Shown here: in pieces, positions 3,426 to 43,445 of the stretch
Layout of the letters: each line of letters starts with the position of its first letter
Numbering within the stretch: position 1 is the first letter of the stretch
NCBI GenBank assembly: GCA_012799825.1
Contig: JAAZKK010000120.1
Span: forward strand, 1-45,217
Direction: 5' to 3'
DNA length: 45,217 nucleotides
From: Clostridiaceae bacterium
Lineage (GTDB): Bacteria > Bacillota > Clostridia > Saccharofermentanales > DTU023
Made by a program: the position numbers and the translations under genes
Notes under the pieces: generated by a model
Database searches by the model: none
The model's input: the letters and a program-made list of their open reading frames with translations, nothing else
Told to the model about the DNA's origin: nothing

Positions 3426-3599
3426 CATCAAAGGGGAATTACTGCCATTCAAGATTACCTGCCTGCGCTTGGAAGGTAAATTGCCTCAGCGTTAAATATT
3501 TTGCAAATGGAGTGATTTTGAATGAGTCGGTATCGGCTGTTCGTGTTATTATTAAATACAACTTGCACGCATGGATTGCGCTGAACGTGCATTCAATGT

Positions 3600-3830
3600 G
3601 AAGACTACTGAAGTTGCGCCTGATGCGAGTGTTATTGAAGCCACATCTAATGTGAAGGTTTCTGACGTTGCGTCTGATCTAGTGGATGCTGAAGATGTAT
3701 CCAATAGAAGATTACTAATGTTGTGCCTAATGCGAGGTGTTGTTGAAGCCACATCTAATGTGATGGTTTCTGACGTTACATCTGATCTGGCGGATGCTGA
3801 AGATGTATCAATTGTGAATACTTATTGAAG
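3600..3830. repeat. 108-bp tandem repeat (2 units plus degenerate remnants)
   Basis: gaagccacatctaatgtga..gtttctgacgtt..tctgatct..gcggatgctgaagatgtatc at 3637 and 3745; translated in + frame as EATSNVxVSDVxSDLxDAEDVS twice. Confidence 0.75.
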
Positions 3831-5039: not shown

Positions 5040-5059
5040 CATCAAAGCGACTGGATCGG

Positions 5060-5225
5060 ATCTAGGATGTTGGATGCACATGCTAATTTAAACACTGTTG
5101 CATCTGTGTTGGATCGTTGTTGATGGATACACAAGCCAATTTAACACTGTTGTGTCTGTATCGGATTTTGGGCGTTAGATGCACATGCTAATTTAACAAC
5201 GTAGCATCTGGATCGGATTTTAGAA
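5060..5225. repeat. ~53-bp degenerate tandem repeat, 3 units
   Basis: gatgcacatgctaatttaa(ca)ctgttgcatctg at 5073, 5126 (gatacacaagccaattta), 5178. Confidence 0.75.
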
Positions 5226-5452
5226 GTAAGATGCGCTCGATGTCGGCCAGAACGTTCCACGGATGAATTTCCCGAGTTAGCTGAGAATATTGAATATTTT
5301 TCATCGTTTGCAGGTCATATAGGTTGTAGATAATTGACAAACGGCTGACAGATGGGATGTAGATGATTTGAAAGACAACAGGCCAGATGAGTTATAGATG
5401 GTCAGATGATGGACATGCACCTATGATCATAGGCAGATGTGAGGTAGTTTCG

Positions 5453-6613
5453 ATGGTTTATCTTGATAATGCGGCGACGACAATGCGCAAGCCTCGTGAA
5501 GTAATCGAAGCGGTTATCCATGCAATGGAAACTGCAGGAAATGCTGCACGGGGCATGGGAGAGGCGGCATTGTGGTCATCGCGTTCTATATTCGAAGCGC
5601 GAATGCAAGTGGCCGATTTTTTCAATGTCAAGCGACCCGATCACGTCATTTTTACATCAAACGCAACCGAAGCGCTCAATATCGCGCTCAACGGATTATT
5701 CGAGAAAGGTGATCATGTCATAACGACAGCACTTGAGCACAACGCGGTGCTTCGACCGCTCTACCGGTTGGAAGAACGTGGAGATATCGCGCTGAGCATT
5801 GTGCCTGCTGACTCTTACGGCAATATTGATATGGATGCGTTTGAGGCTCTGATACGCCCTTTAACGCGCGCGATCGTGGTAACACATGCGTCCAATTTAA
5901 CCGGTAACGTTGTCGATGTGCGCCGTATCGGTCGTCTTGCGCAATCGAGAGGCATTCTCTTCGTTGTTGACGCGGCGCAGACGGCAGGCTCAGTACCTAT
6001 AGATATGGAAAATATTGCCATCGATGTGCTTTGTGTAACGGGACATAAAGGGCTTTTCGGACCGCAGGGCACAGGATGCCTTTGTCTTCGTGATGGTGTC
6101 GATGTTCGTCCTTTCAAAGTCGGCGGCACCGGTGTTCAGTCTTTTAGCAAAACTCAGCCTAAGATGTATCCGGAGCGCCTAGAGGCAGGAACGCTTAATA
6201 CTCACGGTATTGCAGGTCTTGTAGCGGGCATTAACTTTATTCGAAGTGTCGGCATTGAAGAAATTCATCGGCACGAAATGTCTCTTACGCACCGTTTTTA
6301 TGACGGCGTCGTCTCGATCCCTGATATACAGATCTACGGTGACTTTTCAGCTGACGATCGTGCGCCCATTGTGGCGCTTAATTTGGGCGATATTGATTCG
6401 GCGATTGTGGCGGACATGCTGAGCACGTCATACGGTATTGCAACGCGTGCCGGTGCCCACTGCGCCCCAAGAATGCATGAAGCGTTAGGTACGGTATCAC
6501 AAGGTGCCGTTCGTTTCAGTTTTTCTTGGTTCAACACGGAAGATGAGATTGATCGAGCGATTGCCGCGCTGCATGATATCTCGCGGCACGTGGCGTCCGG
6601 CACGCAAGATTAG
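5453..6613 (+). CDS. Aminotransferase class V / cysteine desulfurase (selenocysteine lyase-like)
   Basis: MVYLDNAATTMRKPREV...FTSNATEALNIALNGL...HNAVLRPLYRLEERG...CVTGHKGLFGPQGTGCL (PLP Lys). Start at MVYL with gaggt RBS upstream; ORF track start at 5387 is upstream. Confidence 0.9.
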   Translation: MVYLDNAATTMRKPREVIEAVIHAMETAGNAARGMGEAALWSSRSIFEARMQVADFFNVKRPDHVIFTSNATEALNIALNGLFEKGDHVITTALEHNAVLRPLYRLEERGDIALSIVPADSYGNIDMDAFEALIRPLTRAIVVTHASNLTGNVVDVRRIGRLAQSRGILFVVDAAQTAGSVPIDMENIAIDVLCVTGHKGLFGPQGTGCLCLRDGVDVRPFKVGGTGVQSFSKTQPKMYPERLEAGTLNTHGIAGLVAGINFIRSVGIEEIHRHEMSLTHRFYDGVVSIPDIQIYGDFSADDRAPIVALNLGDIDSAIVADMLSTSYGIATRAGAHCAPRMHEALGTVSQGAVRFSFSWFNTEDEIDRAIAALHDISRHVASGTQD

Positions 6614-6628
6614 CCTACAAGTCTCAGA

Positions 6629-6741
6629 AAGGTGCCGTTCGTTTCAGTTTTTATTGGTTCAATACGGAAGGATAAGATTGATCGAGCGATTGCCGCGCCG
6701 CACGATATCTCGCGGCACGTGGCATCCGGCGCGCAAGACTA
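6629..6741 (+). pseudogene. Partial tandem duplicate of the 3' end of the aminotransferase gene (frameshifted)
   Basis: ggtgccgttcgtttcagttttt.ttggttcaa.acggaag...gcgcaaga.ta(a/g) matches 6501-6613 at +128 bp with a 1-bp insertion (cggaaggataagattg vs cggaagatgagattg). Confidence 0.9.
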
Positions 6742-8369: not shown

Positions 8370-8585
8370 AGTTTCGTCCAGTGGCTCTTTCTGCATCTTA
8401 TTTAGCAACTCTTCCTGCATCTAATTTAGAAACTCTTCCCGTGTTTCATGCAGCGGTTCTTTCGGCATCTTATACAGTAACTCTTCCTGAGCTTCATGTA
8501 GCGGTTCTTTCGGCATCTTATACAGTAACTCTTCCTGAGCTTCATGCAGCGGTTCTTTCGGCATATCTTACAATGGTTCTTCCCT
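8370..8585. repeat. 48-bp minisatellite
   Basis: gcggttctttcggcatcttatacagtaactcttcctgagcttcatgta repeated exactly 48 bp apart with flanking degenerate units; + frame encodes AVLSASYTVTLPELHx repeats, - frame HEAQEELLYKMPKEPL repeats. Confidence 0.9.
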
Positions 8586-10544: not shown

Positions 10545-11609
10545 TCACAATACATCCGATGAAGTCGCGTCTGCTTTCGTATGCCTGATGGACAAATCAG
10601 GCTGAAAAACCACTCCGAAAACGTGCTCAGCGAGCCGACGAATGCCGGCGTGAGGTTTTCCATAAATGTCCGCAAAATAATAATTCTGGTGAAGATCGAT
10701 GCCGGGATCATCATTAAACTCGACAAGATCGGGACCTTCCGGCGTCATCGCGATATCCCATCCGATCATTTTCAGCTCAGGAATCAGCTTTGCCATTTTG
10801 CTGATTTGATCGAGAGCTTCCTTGAAATATGGAACACGTGAGCCCTTCGGACTAAATCCTGTCAACGGATGTTCAGGTACCAACAAGTCGTATCCGTATT
10901 TCGTGCCGGGATACGGCTGAAAATACCCATCTGATCGGATGATGCCGTCATCATCCAAAAGAAGAAGGAACAGACCGTAATGATTATCCGTTCTAGACGT
11001 GTCGCTGCTTACTCGCATCACCGGCGGCAAGAACACAAGGTCGCCCGAATCGTTCGCAAATGTGACGATACGGAGAGTATTGACGGAATGGACGGAGAAG
11101 CGCGCGACATCCGGGTGCTGAACAATCGCTTCTTCCAGCATAGTCAGTCCACTGTCGCGCAGGCGTTTCGCAACCCCTGGTTCCTGTTTTTCTTGCTCAA
11201 TATAAACCACCTGATGGCCGCAGCGGCCGGTGACGTCTTTGGCGAAAAAAACAGGATGGCGGCCGAGAAAGTCCTGAATTTCTTCTTCGCTCGACTCTGT
11301 AAGACTGACGCAATCTCTCCTGTAGAAAGCTCGAAGTCGTTGATAGCCCACCCATTTATCTTCTAAAGGGCTTTCTTTGCCATTGACTGCCGGTTTCAAC
11401 GCTGTCAACATGTGGCTTGTGATGTACTCAGATTTCAATGAGTCATCCTGCATGGAAAATCCGAACTCAAGATAATCCGTCGTTGTTGCCCCATAACGGC
11501 GTCGGCACTTAATCATATCCAAATAAAGAGAAAGGCGGCTCTTACCGGAACGGCGCGCTTCTGCGCATGCAACATTTCTCATGCTTTGAATGGTGGACCA
11601 AGTGATCAT
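10545..11609 (-). CDS. ATP-grasp protein (sugar-transfer-associated ATP-grasp type)
   Basis: FFAKDVTGRCGHQVVYIEQ; HPDVARFSVHSVNTLRIVTF; MIGWDIAMTPEGPDLVEFNDDPGIDLHQ. Confidence 0.8.
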   Translation of the reverse strand: MITWSTIQSMRNVACAEARRSGKSRLSLYLDMIKCRRRYGATTTDYLEFGFSMQDDSLKSEYITSHMLTALKPAVNGKESPLEDKWVGYQRLRAFYRRDCVSLTESSEEEIQDFLGRHPVFFAKDVTGRCGHQVVYIEQEKQEPGVAKRLRDSGLTMLEEAIVQHPDVARFSVHSVNTLRIVTFANDSGDLVFLPPVMRVSSDTSRTDNHYGLFLLLLDDDGIIRSDGYFQPYPGTKYGYDLLVPEHPLTGFSPKGSRVPYFKEALDQISKMAKLIPELKMIGWDIAMTPEGPDLVEFNDDPGIDLHQNYYFADIYGKPHAGIRRLAEHVFGVVFQPDLSIRHTKADATSSDVL

Positions 11610-11707: not shown

Positions 11708-11925
11708 TCCTCGCGTTATTCCTCTTCGAAGTGGAAAATCAACAGTTTAGTGGCTTCCGCGTTATTTCTCTCCGAAGTGGAGAATCAACAGTTTAGTGGC
11801 TTCCGCGTTATTTCTCTCCGAAGTGGAGAATCAACGAGTTCTAGTCCTCACACTATTCCTCCCTGAAGTGAAAAAACAACAATTTAGTGTCCCCACGCTA
11901 TCCATCTTCGAAGTGGAGAATACTT
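11708..11925. repeat. ~46-bp minisatellite, ~5 units
   Basis: gtggagaatcaacagtttagtggcttccgcgttatttctctccgaa; gtgg/gtga anchors at 11731, 11777, 11823, 11868, 11913. Confidence 0.9.
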
Positions 11926-22019: not shown

Positions 22020-22310
22020 TTCCCAGCAGGGTTCCATCAAGATCCATTACATTTAATTTGTTCTGCTCGGCAATGTTTGAAACATGCAAGTGTCCCCTTT
22101 AGAAAGAATTACCGAAAAGCAGGATTCCGTCAAGGATCATTACACATTTATCCTGCTCGATAATGTTGAAATATGCAATAGTCCTTTTAAGAAAGGATTA
22201 CCTAAGCAGAGGGTTCCGTTAAAAACCTTTACACATTATTTGTCACGCTTGGCAATGTTATAAGATAAGCAGTAATCCTTTCTGGAAAGAATTACTGAAT
22301 AGTAAACTGA
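22020..22310. repeat. ~90-bp degenerate tandem repeat, 3 units
   Basis: agcagggttccatcaagatccattacat..tgctcggcaatgtt; agcaggattccgtcaaggatcattacacat..tgctcgataatgtt; agcagagggttccgttaaaaacctttacacat..cgcttggcaatgtt at 22025, 22118, 22205. Confidence 0.8.
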
Positions 22311-22351: not shown

Positions 22352-24517
22352 TTATGTGCGACTTCTGGCTAAATCGGAATGAATGTTTTTCTTTGATGGA
22401 TCAGGCCTCAATATCAAGAAGAGCGTAATGGCGAATATAACAAAAGCAAAGATAGTCTGCCACGAAAACGGAACTTGTCCGATTAAAAGCCCCCCAATTT
22501 GATAGATCTGCAGAGCAATTGCGTAAGCGCCTAGATTTTGAAATAAAATCGCGAAGGCGAATCTTCTTTTGCTGCTGATTTCGCGATAAAGAGTGGCGAC
22601 AGCTCCTAAACAGGGAGAGTTAAAAAGATTAAAGATCAGGAAAGATATGGCAGCGATCGGCATGGGGAAAAAAGTTTGAAAGGCGTTGTGCATCGTATCT
22701 GTGTAGGATTCAATCGGTCCTAACCCTGCCAAAACTCCCATAGTAGATACAATAGCCTCTTTTGCAGTAAAACCTGCAAAAGTGGCAGCAACCGATTGCC
22801 AATTGCCGAATCCCAGCGGGATGAAAATCCATGCGATAGCGCCTCCGATGGCGGCAAGAAGACTTTGCTCGGAATCGACTTGTGCAAACCGTCCATCAGC
22901 GAAGCCGAAACTAGCTAAGAACCACATGATGACACTCATGGCGAAGATAAGGGTGCCTGCTCTTTTAAGAAATGAAGAAACTCGAGTCCACACGTGGCGA
23001 GCCAGCCCTTTTAAGGTTGGCCAACGATAGGCAGGAAGTTCCATCACAAAAGGCGCTGGTTCACCTGCAAACATGCGGAGTTTTTTCATTATGATGCTGG
23101 CCAAAATGACAACTGCGATGGACATAAAATAGACAAGTGGTGCGAGCCACCAAGCGCCGCTGATGTAGCTGGCTATCAAACCGATGACTGGCAGCTTAGC
23201 GCTGCAGGGGATAGCAGTGGTGGTAATCATCGTCATGTCTCGATCTCTTTGGTTGGCGATGGTGCGTGTCGCCATAATGCCGGGAACGCCGCACCCGGAA
23301 GACACCAGAAAAGAAAGAAAACTCCTTCCTGACAAGCCAAAATGACGAAACAGGCGATCCATGATGAATGCGATTCGAGCCATATAGCCACAGTCTTGTA
23401 AAAAACCAAGAGACAGGAAAACCAAAGCCATTTGAGGTACAAAACCGATGGGTGCTGCCAGCCCGGAGAGTACACCGTCAACAACAAGCGAATGAACACT
23501 TTCGCTGGCGCCGATTGAAGTGAGAACCTTTGATACGCCGCCAAAGATCCATTCTTCGAAAAGCACATTATTGACCCAGTTGGACAGCACCATACCAACG
23601 CCTGCAATGGAAATGTAGTACATCAATGTCATAACCAAAGCAAAAACAGGTAACGCGAGCCACCGGTTGGTTACCACTTTGTCGATTTTATCTGAAAAAG
23701 TGTCAAGAGTATCGTTGCGGCGGTGAGAATGTGTCAAAAATTCAGTTATTGTTTTGTAACGTGCGTCTACGACAATACTTTCCGCGTCATCGTCCAGGGC
23801 AACTTCGACATCTTGAATAATTTTCTCAATTAATTGCTTTTTTGCCAATGAAAGGGAGAGCTCTTTTCTAATTCCTTCGTCGCGCTCAAAAAGTTTAATT
23901 GCGTACCAATACCTTTTCTCGTCTGGAATTGCATCAGGGACACATGATTCAATATTTCGAATCGCCTTAGAAATGGGCTCTTTAAAAACTTGTACCGGTT
24001 TTTGCGCCACTTCTCCCGCCGCAGCCGCTTTGCAAGCGTTGACCAGCTCATCTAAACCGGTTATTTTTAACGCAGAGATCCCAATAACAGGACAACCTAG
24101 CGAACGACTTAAAGTTATGAGATCAATTTTGTCGTTTTGCTTTTCGACTTGATCCATCATGTTGATAGCAACAACCACTGGAACATTCAATTCTGTAAGT
24201 TGTGTCGTCAAGTACAAATTTCGTTCTAAATTACTGCCGTCTACAATATTCAAAATAACGTCCGGTGGATTGGTAACGAGATAATTACGAGCAATAACTT
24301 CTTCAGCCGTGTAAGGTGACAGCGAATAAATCCCCGGAAGATCTTGGAGGACAATATTGTCATTATTTTTGATTTTGCCTTCTTTTTTCTCTACCGTAAC
24401 GCCCGGCCAGTTCCCTACATACTGATTTCCACCAGTAAGCGCATTAAAGAGTGTGGTTTTGCCGCTATTAGGATTGCCGGCTAAGGCAATAACGACGGAT
24501 TTTTGTTCTTGTTCCAT
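22352..24517 (-). CDS. feoB: Ferrous iron transport protein B
   Basis: VVIALAGNPNSGKTTLFNALTGGNQYVGNWPGVTVEKKEG; DLPGIYSLSPYTAEEVIARNYL; Gate domains GCGVPGIMATRTI, CSAKLPVIGLIA, GFTAKEAIVSTMGVL. Confidence 0.97.
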   Translation of the reverse strand: MEQEQKSVVIALAGNPNSGKTTLFNALTGGNQYVGNWPGVTVEKKEGKIKNNDNIVLQDLPGIYSLSPYTAEEVIARNYLVTNPPDVILNIVDGSNLERNLYLTTQLTELNVPVVVAINMMDQVEKQNDKIDLITLSRSLGCPVIGISALKITGLDELVNACKAAAAGEVAQKPVQVFKEPISKAIRNIESCVPDAIPDEKRYWYAIKLFERDEGIRKELSLSLAKKQLIEKIIQDVEVALDDDAESIVVDARYKTITEFLTHSHRRNDTLDTFSDKIDKVVTNRWLALPVFALVMTLMYYISIAGVGMVLSNWVNNVLFEEWIFGGVSKVLTSIGASESVHSLVVDGVLSGLAAPIGFVPQMALVFLSLGFLQDCGYMARIAFIMDRLFRHFGLSGRSFLSFLVSSGCGVPGIMATRTIANQRDRDMTMITTTAIPCSAKLPVIGLIASYISGAWWLAPLVYFMSIAVVILASIIMKKLRMFAGEPAPFVMELPAYRWPTLKGLARHVWTRVSSFLKRAGTLIFAMSVIMWFLASFGFADGRFAQVDSEQSLLAAIGGAIAWIFIPLGFGNWQSVAATFAGFTAKEAIVSTMGVLAGLGPIESYTDTMHNAFQTFFPMPIAAISFLIFNLFNSPCLGAVATLYREISSKRRFAFAILFQNLGAYAIALQIYQIGGLLIGQVPFSWQTIFAFVIFAITLFLILRPDPSKKNIHSDLARSRT

Positions 24518-25094: not shown

Positions 25095-25265
25095 GCAGTA
25101 ATCGTTTTGCTACTTCTTGGTGGAACTGTCTTTGCGTCACATAGCTCGGCGCTTGCCAGAATCGGTGTTATCTCTCCTAGGCGGAACTGCCTTTTCGCCA
25201 TATAGCGCGATGCTTGCAAGAATCGGTGTTCTCTATATTCGGCGGAAGTGCTTTGAGAGGTGAAT
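25095..25265. repeat. 61-bp tandem repeat, ~2.5-3 units
   Basis: ggYggaactgYctttKcg.ca.atagc.cg.tgcttgc.agaatcggtgtt.tct anchors at 25119, 25180, 25241. Confidence 0.85.
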
Positions 25266-28775: not shown

Positions 28776-30662
28776 ATGAAACGAAACTGGTGGCAAGACA
28801 AAGTTGTTTATCAAATCTACCCAATGAGTTTTTGTGATACTAACGGGGATGGAATTGGTGACATCTCTGGAATTATCAACCGGTTAGATTATCTGGAACA
28901 ACTCGGTGTAGACCTCTTATGGATTTCGCCGCTTTATCCATCTCCTAATCGTGATAACGGTTATGACATCAGTGATTATTGTGCAATTCATCCCAACTAT
29001 GGCACGATAAAAGATTTTGATCGTTTGGTTAAACTTGCTGGCGAACGTGGTATTAATATTTTGATGGATCTTGTAATTAATCACACTTCTAATCAACACG
29101 AATGGTTCCAAAAAAGCCGTCAACGCATTGATCCTTATACAGACTATTACATTTGGCAAAAGGCACGGAATGGCAAAAAAGCAACTTTGACAGATATTGA
29201 TGATGAGCGAAGAGAAACAGAGAAGTTAGACAATAATTCACCTTTACAAGACATTACTTCGCAACAATATAATGGCGACAAAAATACAGCTTTAGCAGAC
29301 GATCGGTCCGATGACATATCTAAGGATACAAAAAATAAATCTAAAGTTGAAAAAGTGCCATTTGGCAAAATTCCGAATAATTGGGGTAATTTTTTTGGCG
29401 AAATTCCTTGGACATACGATGAGGTGCGCGGGGAGTACTATCTTCATTTGTTTGCGAAAGAACAACCAGACCTTAATTATCGAAATGAGAAAGTGATTGA
29501 GGCAGTTGAAGAGGTTATGAAGTTTTGGCTGGATCGCGGTGTCGTCGGTTTTCGGTGCGATGTAATTAACATTCTTTACAAAGAGTCGCTGGAAAACGGG
29601 AAGCCGAAACCTGCATTGACGGGTATAGAACACTATTTATCGACGCCCGGTTTGCATCGATTGCTTCAGCGTTTCAACCAAAATGTGTGGTCTAAGTACG
29701 ATGCGTTTACGGTAGGAGAGACCGTTTTTATTACGACAAAAATGGCAGATGATTTGGCTAATCCGGCGCGAAAAGAGCTGAGTGCTGTTTTTTCATTTGA
29801 ACATATGGAAACTGACTGTTTTAAGATTAAATGGTTTTTGCGTCCATTTTCGCCAAATAGACTTTTCAAAACACTTACGAAATGGCAGAAAAACCTGTTC
29901 TGGAACACGCTTTATTTTGAAAATCATGACCAGCCCAGATCGGTATCACGCTTCGGTGATGCAGATCGCTATCATCGGGAGAGCGCCAAGGCTTTAGCTA
30001 TTCTGCTGATGAGTTTAAGGGGTACAGTATTCCTCTATCAGGGTCAGGAAATCGGCATGACGAATTTTGATTTTGACTCGATGGACGAGTTGCGCGATAT
30101 AGAATCACACAATATTTGGAAAATTGGCAAACGGTTGCGGCTACCTAAAAGGCTTCTTTGGAAAATGATGACGACAAAAAGTCGTGACAATGCGCGAACG
30201 CCGATGCAATGGAGTGATGAGCCAAATGCCGGCTTTACGACGGGAAAACCGTGGCTAGGGATCAATCGTAATTACAAAAAAATTAATGTTAAAAGTGAAA
30301 AATTGGACCCCGAGTCAATTTTGCAATTTTATCAAAAGTTGATTCGTTTCAGGAAGAAAAGCAAGGCAATGCGTTGTGGAGATTTTAGGGAACTATATAG
30401 ACGCGGATCCGTCTATGCTTTTGAACGTGTTTATTCACCGGCAGATCAAAAGCCAACCGATATTTTTGGATTAACTAAAGACATCGAAAATGCGTTGCTC
30501 GGAGAAGATGATCAAAGAGAGAAACTGATTATAGTTGTAAATTTGTCAGGAAAACGCAGGAAAAACCCTTATCAGGGAGCGTGTCTTTTCTCTTCTTATG
30601 AACGAGATGAGGTTGGCAGCATGCTGGATCCTTATGAAGCTGCGATCCTTAAGGTTTTATAA
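28776..30662 (+). CDS. Alpha-glucosidase / oligo-1,6-glucosidase (GH13) with ~60-aa insertion
   Basis: MKRNWWQDKVVYQIYPMSFCDTNGDGIGDISGIINRLDYLEQLGVDLLWISPLYPSPNRDNGYDISDY; GFRCDVINILYKE; FENHDQPRSVSRFG; NARTPMQWSDEPNAGFTTGKPWL. Confidence 0.95.
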   Translation: MKRNWWQDKVVYQIYPMSFCDTNGDGIGDISGIINRLDYLEQLGVDLLWISPLYPSPNRDNGYDISDYCAIHPNYGTIKDFDRLVKLAGERGINILMDLVINHTSNQHEWFQKSRQRIDPYTDYYIWQKARNGKKATLTDIDDERRETEKLDNNSPLQDITSQQYNGDKNTALADDRSDDISKDTKNKSKVEKVPFGKIPNNWGNFFGEIPWTYDEVRGEYYLHLFAKEQPDLNYRNEKVIEAVEEVMKFWLDRGVVGFRCDVINILYKESLENGKPKPALTGIEHYLSTPGLHRLLQRFNQNVWSKYDAFTVGETVFITTKMADDLANPARKELSAVFSFEHMETDCFKIKWFLRPFSPNRLFKTLTKWQKNLFWNTLYFENHDQPRSVSRFGDADRYHRESAKALAILLMSLRGTVFLYQGQEIGMTNFDFDSMDELRDIESHNIWKIGKRLRLPKRLLWKMMTTKSRDNARTPMQWSDEPNAGFTTGKPWLGINRNYKKINVKSEKLDPESILQFYQKLIRFRKKSKAMRCGDFRELYRRGSVYAFERVYSPADQKPTDIFGLTKDIENALLGEDDQREKLIIVVNLSGKRRKNPYQGACLFSSYERDEVGSMLDPYEAAILKVL

Positions 30663-30692: not shown

Positions 30693-33623
30693 TTGTCAGC
30701 AATTGAAATTCGTGACCGGACGTTTTTATTGAAAACAAAAAATACGTCATATTTATTTATGGTTAACGAGTACGGCCATGTTGAGCACATTCACTATGGA
30801 AAAAAAGTGAGGATTGAGGATGCTGAAGCTTTGCGCTACAAACGGACGATTCCCTATGGATCTCTGTTAGTTTATCCTTGTGCTGCATCGCACAACTCCA
30901 CACATAGCGGAGCAAGCTCTGATTCGGCACATGAGGCATTTTCCGATAATGTGGCCATCTCTTTTTCGTCTTTTGATTCGCATTCCGAAGCGACTGACTC
31001 TTGGAGAGATAAACCCTACACAAGTTCTCGTCCTGAAAAAATACCATATTTTAGTTCTGTCGATAATTCACGCGAACGTTTTCGTTCTGATCGATTACAG
31101 TCTTTGTCAAAAAAACAGGACTACCCATCCTCGGAATATCTGGAAAATGTAGATCGAATATCCGATCAAACGTATAGTCTTGACAACGTGCTTCTCGAGT
31201 GGTCAGGTAGCGGTCGAGGTGATTTTAGAACATCGCCTATTGAAATTGAATTTTTGGACGGTACCTTTACCACAGATTTCTTGTTTCATCGCTATGAAAT
31301 AAAAATGGGTGTGATTCCGGCGGAGACGTTACCTACGGCATATGATGATGCCGGAGGAAATAAATACGATGTTACCGGTTGTAATGGGTGTGACGATGGT
31401 GTTTTGGACTGCTCTAGAGACTGCGGCAGAAGCGAAGTTGATGGCGCTTCTTGGAAGGGCTCTAGCAATGCAGGCAGAACTGAGTGCGATGCCGATGTTT
31501 GGAACGATTCTATTGATGCCGGCAGAGCCGAATTGAAGGTCGCCAGTTTGAATGGCCATAGTAATGCTGGCAGTAGCAGATTTGATGGTGCTGCTATGAA
31601 CGGCTTTAGCGATGCCTGTCAAGATAGTTGTTTTTCAGGAGCTGAAACGCTAAGTCTTTTTCTGAAAGAGGCACTCTGGCCGCTTGAATTGCAACTGATT
31701 TATACCGTTTTCCCGGAGGAAGATGTAATTACCAGGCGTGCTGTGCTGTGGAACAGAGGCTCAGATCCGGTAATGTTGCACAAAATGATGAGTCAAATGA
31801 TTGACTTGCCGGGGCGTGAGTTTAATGTGTTAACGTTACATGGTGACTGGAATGCGGAGGCAAACACGAATGTTACACCGCTGACGTATGGGCGATTCGT
31901 TAATGAGAGTCGTACTGGAAGTTCGTCTAATCGTCACAATCCGGCTCTCGCCCTAGCGGATCAGCGTGCGACGGAACACCATGGAGAAGTGTACGGCTTT
32001 AACCTAGTGTACAGCGGCAATCATCAAACTTCCGTGGAGCGCTCAAGCCGCGGTTTTGTGCGCGTGATATCGGGAATCCAACCGGAAAATTTCCACTGGC
32101 AACTTCAGCCAAAAACGTGTTTTGAAACGCCTGAAGCGGTGCTCACCTATTCCAATCAGGGCTTTAATGGTATGAGTCATCAATTCCATCGCTTTGTTCT
32201 GCGTCACATCGTTCGAAGCCCTTGGCGCAATCGAGAACGTCCCATTTTAATCAACAATTGGGAAGCTTATATGTTCGATTTCAATGAGCGAAAGCTTATG
32301 AAACTTGCTCGTCAGGCAAAGGAGCTCGGAATAGAACTATTTGTGCTTGATGACGGATGGTTCGGCACGAGGAATAATGACCTTGCTGGGTTGGGCGATT
32401 ATGAGGTCAATCGAAAAAAGCTGCCGTCCGGTTTAAAAGGTTTTTCTAAAAAAATTGAAAAATTGGGGATGAGCTTTGGCCTTTGGTTTGAGCCGGAATC
32501 CATAAATCCGAATAGTGTGCTTTACAGAGTCCACCCGGAATATGCGATTCAAATACCCGGTCGAACACCGGTTCAGGGGCGCCATCAACTGTTATTAGAT
32601 TTTACGAACCCTGCCGTACAAGATTACGTTGTCGATAATATAACGAGGATTCTAGATGGAGCACCCATAAAGTATGTCAAATGGGACATGAACCGCCACA
32701 TGAGCGATATTTTTTCAAAGCAAACGCATCCGGGAGAATTTGCGCATCGGTACATGATCGGACTTTATCAGGTATTAAAACGAATATTTGGGCCGCGCCC
32801 GGAGATTCTTCTTGAAATGTGCTCGTCCGGGGGTAATCGCTTCGACTTGGGTATGCTCTGTTTTGCTGCACAAATATGGGCCTCAGACGACACAGATCCG
32901 ATAGAACGGCTGAGAATACAAAAGGGTCTTTCATATTTTTATCCGCAAAGTTCAGTGGGCGCGCATGTGTCTGCTGCTCCGCACACACAAACACTGCGAA
33001 ATACGCCGCTTAGCACACGATTTAATGTGGCGGCGTTCGGTGCCTTCGGATATGAGATGGATCTCACTGCGTTAAATCATGTTGAGCGCGAGGAGATCAA
33101 GGATCAGATCATATTTTATAAAGAACGCAGGGCACTTTTTCAATTTGGACGGTTTTATCGTTATGACTGGCCACGGCCGAATCAAGAAGCTTTTTCAGTC
33201 GTTTCGGAAGATCAACGACAGTCGATTGTGGTTTTTGCGACAACACTCACAAAGTCCGGGGAAGAAAATGATTGGCTGCGGGTTGCCGGGCTAGATGCGG
33301 ATACGGTGTATAAGATGCGGACGCGGCCACAAAAAGTACATATCGCCCGGTTCGGTCATTTAATCAATTATGTGTCACCTATTAAACTGAAAGCGGACGG
33401 GTTGGCGCTTACGCTAGCCAATCGCTATTACGCGCTACCGGACGGTTCGCTCGATTTAACGGCATGCGGCTCTGCTTTTGAAAGCGGCATTGGCTTGAAT
33501 AACCAGTATATTGGCACCGGTTATAACTCTGATATACGTATGTGGGGAGACTTTGGATCGCAAATGTATGTCATTATGGCGCAGCCGTTCGAGGAGGTTT
33601 CTAACGAAGTCGACATATCCTAA
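30693..33623 (+). CDS. Alpha-galactosidase (GH36) with two low-complexity insertions; TTG start
   Basis: LLEWSGSGRGDFRTSPIEIEFLDG; FVLDDGWFGTRNNDLAGLGDYEVNRKKLPSGL; KWDMNRHMSD (nucleophile); CSSGGNRFDLGML; ASDDTDPIERLRIQKG; SVGAHVSAAPHTQT. ttg at 30693 preceded by gaagggag. Confidence 0.95.
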   Translation: MSAIEIRDRTFLLKTKNTSYLFMVNEYGHVEHIHYGKKVRIEDAEALRYKRTIPYGSLLVYPCAASHNSTHSGASSDSAHEAFSDNVAISFSSFDSHSEATDSWRDKPYTSSRPEKIPYFSSVDNSRERFRSDRLQSLSKKQDYPSSEYLENVDRISDQTYSLDNVLLEWSGSGRGDFRTSPIEIEFLDGTFTTDFLFHRYEIKMGVIPAETLPTAYDDAGGNKYDVTGCNGCDDGVLDCSRDCGRSEVDGASWKGSSNAGRTECDADVWNDSIDAGRAELKVASLNGHSNAGSSRFDGAAMNGFSDACQDSCFSGAETLSLFLKEALWPLELQLIYTVFPEEDVITRRAVLWNRGSDPVMLHKMMSQMIDLPGREFNVLTLHGDWNAEANTNVTPLTYGRFVNESRTGSSSNRHNPALALADQRATEHHGEVYGFNLVYSGNHQTSVERSSRGFVRVISGIQPENFHWQLQPKTCFETPEAVLTYSNQGFNGMSHQFHRFVLRHIVRSPWRNRERPILINNWEAYMFDFNERKLMKLARQAKELGIELFVLDDGWFGTRNNDLAGLGDYEVNRKKLPSGLKGFSKKIEKLGMSFGLWFEPESINPNSVLYRVHPEYAIQIPGRTPVQGRHQLLLDFTNPAVQDYVVDNITRILDGAPIKYVKWDMNRHMSDIFSKQTHPGEFAHRYMIGLYQVLKRIFGPRPEILLEMCSSGGNRFDLGMLCFAAQIWASDDTDPIERLRIQKGLSYFYPQSSVGAHVSAAPHTQTLRNTPLSTRFNVAAFGAFGYEMDLTALNHVEREEIKDQIIFYKERRALFQFGRFYRYDWPRPNQEAFSVVSEDQRQSIVVFATTLTKSGEENDWLRVAGLDADTVYKMRTRPQKVHIARFGHLINYVSPIKLKADGLALTLANRYYALPDGSLDLTACGSAFESGIGLNNQYIGTGYNSDIRMWGDFGSQMYVIMAQPFEEVSNEVDIS
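31392..31631 (+). repeat. In-frame 48-bp tandem repeat (5 x 16 aa) inside the GH36 gene
   Basis: DDGVLDCSRDCGRSEV / DGASWKGSSNAGRTEC / DADVWNDSIDAGRAEL / KVASLNGHSNAGSSRF / DGAAMNGFSDACQDSC. Confidence 0.9.
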
Positions 33624-35500: not shown

Positions 35501-35610
35501 CCTGAATTGTTTAAGTGTTTCTGTGATCCTGAGTTGTTTAAGCGATTCTGTGATCCTGAGTTGTTTAAGTGATTCTGTGATCATGAATTGTCTGAGCGTT
35601 TCTGTGATAA
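35501..35610. repeat. 27-bp tandem repeat, 4 units
   Basis: cctgagttgtttaagcgattctgtgat at 35501, 35528, 35555, 35582; - frame encodes ITESLKQLR repeats. Confidence 0.92.
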
Positions 35611-42311: not shown

Positions 42312-43445
42312 TCATACATTTTGAGCGCTCATCAGCGTTCGAGCCTGTTCCATCATATTGTCTGTTACACCGATATAATATTTTAACGTGATCGATATAT
42401 CCGTGTGTCCCATGATCGCTTGTAGTGCTGTTTGATGCATTCCGGCTTCTGCCATTCTCGTCGCGAAGGTGTGCCTAAAATCATATAAAGAACATTTTAC
42501 CGGAGGACGGATAATAGCGATTTTCTTCTGATTAGTCTTCCCTCCTTTTTTCCATTCCGCTGTTTGCTTCAGTATGTGTTTAAAAGCACACTGCAGAGCG
42601 TTCATAGAAGGTTTTTTATTGGCTGCAGGAAAAAGCCAACCTTCTTTCGTGACAAAAGCGTACTTTTCTCTTTGGTCGAGCAAAATGCATTTTAGATCTG
42701 TTGTGAGCGGTATGTCTCGTTTAGCTGCTTTAGTTTTAAGGGGTGAGTATCCGTCAATAGTCCATCCTCTACGAATTTCTAAAAAATCATCTTTTATGTC
42801 GCGAATTTGTAGTCCTAGGGCTTCCGATGGACGTAAGCCGGTTGATGCAAGAATTTTGAAGTAGTTAAAGTATTTGGACCTACTCGCTGCTTTCATTATC
42901 CGCTCCATATCTTCGTCAGATATGATTCTAGATCTTTTTTCTACGTCTGCAGCCTCATCATCTGATGTTGCTCGGAATACTAATCCTTGGGTTGGAGCAA
43001 CGAGTTCATAACCTAGTGTGTTTATTGCCCAGTTATAGGGGCGAGAAATGGCGCCCCGGATCTTTTTAACAAAGGAAGAGCTTAGTCCGGCTTTTGAGGC
43101 TGTTGAAAGCACAGTGTAAACATCTGCTCTCTTAATGTCAGTTAGTTTTCTATGTCCAATAAAGGGCCTCACATGGTTTTCATAAACGGGTACTTGCACT
43201 CGTAATTCCGCAGGAGATAAATGCACCTTGACATGATTCTCTATCCACAGATAAAAGAGGTCATCCATAGTATCTTTGGTGGATGGTCCTTCCGCTTCCT
43301 TGTCAAGTGCATCACAACGCGCTCTGAAAGATCCAGATGACTCATTCTTCCGTGACTTCAATTGTCGCCTCTTACCTTGGGAGTCGGTCACGTAGTAGAG
43401 ATATCGTCCATCTTTTTTACTTTTGTGAATTCTGTTTTTTGGCAT
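42312..43445 (-). CDS. int: Tyrosine recombinase / phage-type integrase
   Basis: ASTGLRPSEALGL (Arg I), CSLYDFRHTFATRMAEAGM (HxxR region), IMGHTDISITLKYY (His/Trp and Tyr). Confidence 0.96.
   Translation of the reverse strand: MPKNRIHKSKKDGRYLYYVTDSQGKRRQLKSRKNESSGSFRARCDALDKEAEGPSTKDTMDDLFYLWIENHVKVHLSPAELRVQVPVYENHVRPFIGHRKLTDIKRADVYTVLSTASKAGLSSSFVKKIRGAISRPYNWAINTLGYELVAPTQGLVFRATSDDEAADVEKRSRIISDEDMERIMKAASRSKYFNYFKILASTGLRPSEALGLQIRDIKDDFLEIRRGWTIDGYSPLKTKAAKRDIPLTTDLKCILLDQREKYAFVTKEGWLFPAANKKPSMNALQCAFKHILKQTAEWKKGGKTNQKKIAIIRPPVKCSLYDFRHTFATRMAEAGMHQTALQAIMGHTDISITLKYYIGVTDNMMEQARTLMSAQNV

Follow-up and report, generated by a model that had tools for sequence, protein, structure and literature searches.

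A GH36 alpha-galactosidase gene (30693-33623, forward strand) in the stretch of 45,217 nucleotides analysed here, hereafter the window, carries a degenerate in-frame tandem array of five 48-bp units, encoding five units of 16 residues, at 31392-31631. Our preferred reading, to which we give a probability of roughly 0.8, is that this repeat is an old, in-frame and largely neutral tandem expansion in a permissive, surface-type loop of the enzyme's N-terminal beta domain. Head-to-tail duplication of a short stretch, with a unit of 48 bp (or perhaps 24 bp at first), would have taken place in an ancestor shared with a sister species whose genome we refer to as G006, presumably by replication slippage or unequal recombination. 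Reading frame and enzyme fold would have survived the duplication because 48 is divisible by three and the loop is tolerant of length, and the copies would then have drifted apart under weak constraint to leave a disordered loop rich in D, G, S and N. The array would be one case of a lineage-wide process of short tandem duplication that acts mostly between genes.

The enzyme and its two inserts

The gene starts with TTG and encodes a protein of 976 residues, for which Pfam, alignment and a structure model were all considered. The catalytic Melibiase domain (PF02065, E 4e-140) was found together with the GH36 N-terminal domain (PF16875, Glyco_hydro_36N, E 3e-72) and C-terminal domain (PF16874, E 5e-7), supporting the assignment to GH36, and the KWDMN and SDDTD motifs, with D665 and D732, show no variation across a 42-sequence alignment. 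These two residues align to the D478/D548 region of AgaA and, going by the titles of the 4fnt and 4fnu entries and by general knowledge, we take D665 to be the nucleophile and D732 the acid/base. The nearest solved structures are AgaA and AgaB from Geobacillus (E 9e-176 for the match to 4fnr). An AlphaFold2 model of the protein averages 79 in pLDDT and exceeds 90 over most of the chain, and its top structural match in Foldseek is again AgaA 4fnr, with a TM score of 0.93 by target length. The protein is like Geobacillus stearothermophilus AgaA and AgaB (4fnr, 4fnq) in domain order, catalytic motifs and predicted fold, but unlike AgaA it has two long inserts, predicted to be disordered, in its N-terminal beta domain. 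Apart from these inserts the model gives a confident and otherwise ordinary GH36 fold, and the enzyme has presumably kept its activity despite the repeat.

The repeat lies in an insert of residues ~220-314 (approximately 31350-31634, forward strand), which sits between two strands of the beta domain and replaces AgaA residues ~124-128. Here the alignment jumps from residue 217 (AgaA 123) to residue 316 (AgaA 129), placing ~98 residues where AgaA has ~5, and the pLDDT falls to 24-36. An earlier reading of this DNA, made from the sequence only, had proposed that the repeat interrupts the N-terminal region between ordinary GH36 segments, and the alignment and the AlphaFold2 model agree on this point. 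The second insert, which the earlier reading did not mention, is Ser-rich, covers residues ~65-156 (30885-31160, forward strand) and has no significant internal repeat (72/300 shuffles). Both inserts are modelled at pLDDT below 50 and are predicted to be unstructured, and the repeat insert itself has no match in Pfam. According to a census of protein tandem repeats (PMC7230257), such repeats are enriched in disordered regions; the GH36 repeat similarly coincides with a predicted disordered segment, but differs in that the segment is a loop of a bacterial enzyme and specific to one lineage.

A decayed array in an open reading frame

The five 16-residue units listed by the sequence-only reading are present at 31392-31631 as quoted, in frame with the ORF, and the ends it gave were accurate to ~15 bases, with self-alignment placing the repetitive part at ~31385-31616. 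Mean identity at a lag of 48 over 31392-31631 is 0.5625, compared with 0.318 +/- 0.033 at the same lag in codon shuffles, and in none of 5000 such shuffles did the best value over in-frame periods from 6 to 120 match it. Pairs of units have 24-32 of their 48 bases in common, and an independent repeat finder reported four copies of 47 nt at spacings of 48, 48 and 48 (31425-31615). Tandem Repeats Finder, run down to a score of 40, did not detect the array because the copies are too diverged. With its head-to-tail copies, a period that is a multiple of three and an open frame, the array can be classed as an in-frame coding tandem repeat; with copies ~56% alike and no Tandem Repeats Finder call at score 40, it does not look like a copy-number-variable minisatellite (VNTR), whose copies are near-identical and able to slip. 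Because it is so decayed, its copy number is unlikely to be varying now or between strains.

Repeats are prone to misassembly and this genome is a MAG in 129 contigs, so an assembly or frameshift artefact needs to be considered. However, copies that are ~56% alike would not be confused at the level of reads, and no stop interrupts the frame over 240 bp, where the two other forward frames contain 3 and 11. The sister MAG, a separate record, likewise carries an insert at this position. An artefact is scarcely credible.

The palindromic elements of Rickettsia are dispersed coding repeats, and they offer a model in which a mobile or dispersed element would have been inserted into the GH36 gene. 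A tolerant site within a coding sequence is where such an element might be expected to lie, but protein and DNA searches of the assembled genome revealed no second copy of the array and there are no inverted repeats of note beside it. We reject this origin on account of the array being single-copy, and consider it very improbable.

Coding satellites, tandem arrays that occur within coding DNA and have a repeat length divisible by three, are already known in prokaryotes (PMC6749651, PMC8161180; Subirana and Messeguer 2019, 2021), and the GH36 array adds another example. It resembles them in its coding location, in its period and in being unique, and the arrays of Clostridioides difficile described in the same studies are likewise unique and not transposed. 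It differs from them in being decayed and in interrupting a conserved metabolic enzyme. Bacillus satellites are reported to have a constant size of 52 or 20-21 nt (PMC8161180), whereas many array sizes coexist in the genome studied here.

Age of the array and constraint on it

Homologues were collected from loci of 80 GTDB species genomes and relatives, and among the 90-odd that were aligned, a long loop at the repeat site is found outside the window protein only in the syntenic sister species G006. Between the anchors flanking the repeat there are 131 residues in the window and 99 in G006, compared with 33-51 in the other homologues covering the region; the equivalent values for the second insert are 121, 61 and ~25-33. 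These lengths bear out the earlier suggestion that the repeat is a local expansion and not an ancient domain conserved in distant taxa, and on the evidence of the alignment neither insert is an ancient domain. GH36 of this type was detectable in two of the 14 genomes of the genus, G006 and G000 (the genome of the window); named isolates aside, all the genomes compared are assemblies from uncultured organisms, and relatives were sampled in small stretches. The assembly of G003, a close relative, breaks at this place, with contig C309 ending inside the insert of the adjacent GH13 gene and C236 resuming close to where GH36 ends; repeats there may be the cause.

The G006 contig (JAAZJH010000037.1, from the MAG Clostridiaceae bacterium AS21ysBPME_217) runs collinear with the window over its full length, with ~78-88% nucleotide identity in each block. 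Where the window protein carries the repeat, the GH36 of G006 has an insert of 62 aa, with two Cys and with a different sequence and length. Within it, the sole lags with identity above 0.40 are 24, 48, 72 and 96, and the mean over these four (0.425 compared with 0.322 +/- 0.020) was matched in 0/5000 codon shuffles. The inserts of the two species do not align convincingly, their DNA local score being reached by 32/2000 shuffles and their protein score by 280/2000, as might be expected if there had been independent expansions at the same permissive site. Since a faint 24/48-bp period nevertheless persists in the G006 insert, the array is probably older than the split between the two species and would then have decayed separately in each without homogenisation. 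An ancestral 24/48-bp array with separate decay is the simplest reading of these data, with independent expansion as the alternative.

Compared unit to unit, the five units pooled give a pN of 0.40 and a pS of 0.57, while the main part of the GH36 gene compared between the two species gives 0.05 and 0.55; these are uncorrected proportions near saturation and should be taken as a rough guide only. They point to a constraint on the array that is much weaker than that on the enzyme, and the similarity of the pS among units to that between species argues against recent homogenisation of the units. The array is presumably close to neutral, although a pN/pS below 1 leaves room for some selection on it.

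Could the repeat instead be a functional module, selected for binding, oligomerisation or metal binding? The insert is rich in Cys (7 in ~95 residues, or 7.4% vs 0.5% in the remaining gene), an insert has been retained at the same site in G006, and the neighbouring GH13 enzyme also carries one, all of which would fit such a role. A further point in its favour comes from the GH36 enzyme AgaSK, where neighbouring subunits contribute their N- and C-terminal regions to the substrate pocket (PMC7688924). If the insert were a selected module, however, its divergence in sequence and length from the G006 insert, which has two Cys, and the high pN/pS among its units would be harder to accommodate, as would its predicted lack of structure and of any Pfam match. 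We regard a functional module as unlikely.

One observation sits less easily with a largely neutral tandem expansion: among the orthologous pairs compared in the window, internal indels of at least 5 aa occur only in the two adjacent glycosidases, GH13 and GH36, and these two might therefore be special in some way. The GH13 gene (28776-30662, forward strand) has a hydrophilic loop insert of ~60 residues (29160-29360) that is lineage-specific and is also present, and variable, in the relatives. The length of this loop varies across the genus, with a total protein length of up to 748 aa in G007.

Tandem arrays in the wider genome

The equal 48-bp period of the GH36 array and of a non-coding minisatellite at 8370 had been taken to link the two. 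The minisatellite (8385-8564, intergenic) does show related 24/48-bp lags, but its best match to the GH36 array, on the opposite strand, scores 18 bits (E 0.2). Its copies are 89% alike and therefore young, and the corresponding syntenic gap of G006 holds no such period. In a sample of the genome the periods of non-coding arrays range from 12 to 129 bp, one of them being 48, with no preference for 48 bp and no 24/48-bp excess among 52 arrays. The unrelated sequences rule out a link at that level and, given also the differing ages and the absence of the 8370 array from G006, the shared period looks like a coincidence; that the two arrays reflect one event or mechanism connected by period seems to us quite improbable.

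The broader idea, that the process behind the non-coding arrays also acts in coding DNA and is tolerated there when it stays in frame, fares better once the match with 8370 is set aside, as a filter by frame is apparent at the level of the genome. A standard search of a 361-kb sample of G000, which together with smaller samples of relatives underlies the genome-wide figures, found 22 coding and 52 non-coding arrays of period at least 10. Periods are multiples of three in 20/22 of the coding but 20/52 of the non-coding arrays (Fisher p 3e-5), bearing in mind that some of the coding arrays are ordinary linkers or repeat domains (TPR-like, Pro- or Thr-rich) which inflate the coding count.

Conserved enzymes interrupted or extended by arrays in this sample include an AddA-like helicase, DnaG, TopA, an ABC transporter and a GH2 enzyme. 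The AddA-like helicase-nuclease (L104:470-5674) has 1735 aa, compared with 1604 in G006 and ~1250-1460 in most full-length members from the genus. It is longer than all relatives searched and contains three in-frame arrays (51, 60 and 21 bp), at residues ~526-561, 691-758 and 873-887, in or beside stretches that do not align in relatives.

In the G000 sample, lenient tandem repeats cover 18% of the non-coding sequence, compared with 7% in G006. Coverage is also low in several other relatives, but it equals that of G000 in some small samples from the order, and so the richness of G000 is not unique. Genes for MutS and MutL were found in G000, as in all relatives searched, and we therefore rejected loss of mismatch repair as the cause of the arrays; another repair defect may yet be involved. 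A tentative extension of our reading, which we consider somewhat less likely than not, is that the lineage has an unusually high birth rate of short tandem duplications with working mismatch repair genes. This would swell intergenic DNA and steadily add disordered inserts to the loops of conserved enzymes, among them proteins of DNA replication and repair, with the GH36 insert as one fossil of the process.

The comparison with G006 shows a related difference in the window itself. Of 19 syntenic gaps outside genes, 18 are longer in the window than in G006 (sign test p 8e-5), and the gaps total 6154 bases in the window and 2563 in G006 when those over 1 kb, which hold extra genes, are left out. 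Tandem arrays account for 2923 of 14310 intergenic bases in the window and for 171 of 4088 in G006. FeoB (22355-24517), an ATP-grasp gene (10548-11609) and a phage-type integrase (42315-43445) lack orthologues at the corresponding positions of G006.

The GH36 array is a clear and datable case in which local duplication has made a conserved enzyme's loop longer without disrupting the enzyme. The wider repeat load of the genome nonetheless merits more attention than this single array, and the comparison with G006 is the more useful one. Two syntenic sister species that differ more than twofold in the length of their intergenic DNA, the longer being rich in arrays, represent a natural test of what governs the rate at which tandem duplications arise in bacteria and of how they are filtered by frame in coding sequence.

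The intergenic arrays of the window are unrelated to one another and have many periods; besides that at 8385-8564 they include those at 2535-2750, 3595-3809, 5051-5218, 11712-11845, 22025-22237, 25122-25255 and 35501-35608, and those starting at 11712 and 35501 count, like the one at 8385-8564, as young. The ORF at 5387-6613 has a 129-bp tandem duplication (6501-6738) across its 3' end, with 92% identity between copies; the second of them falls immediately beyond the gene and corresponds to the single gene end in G006.
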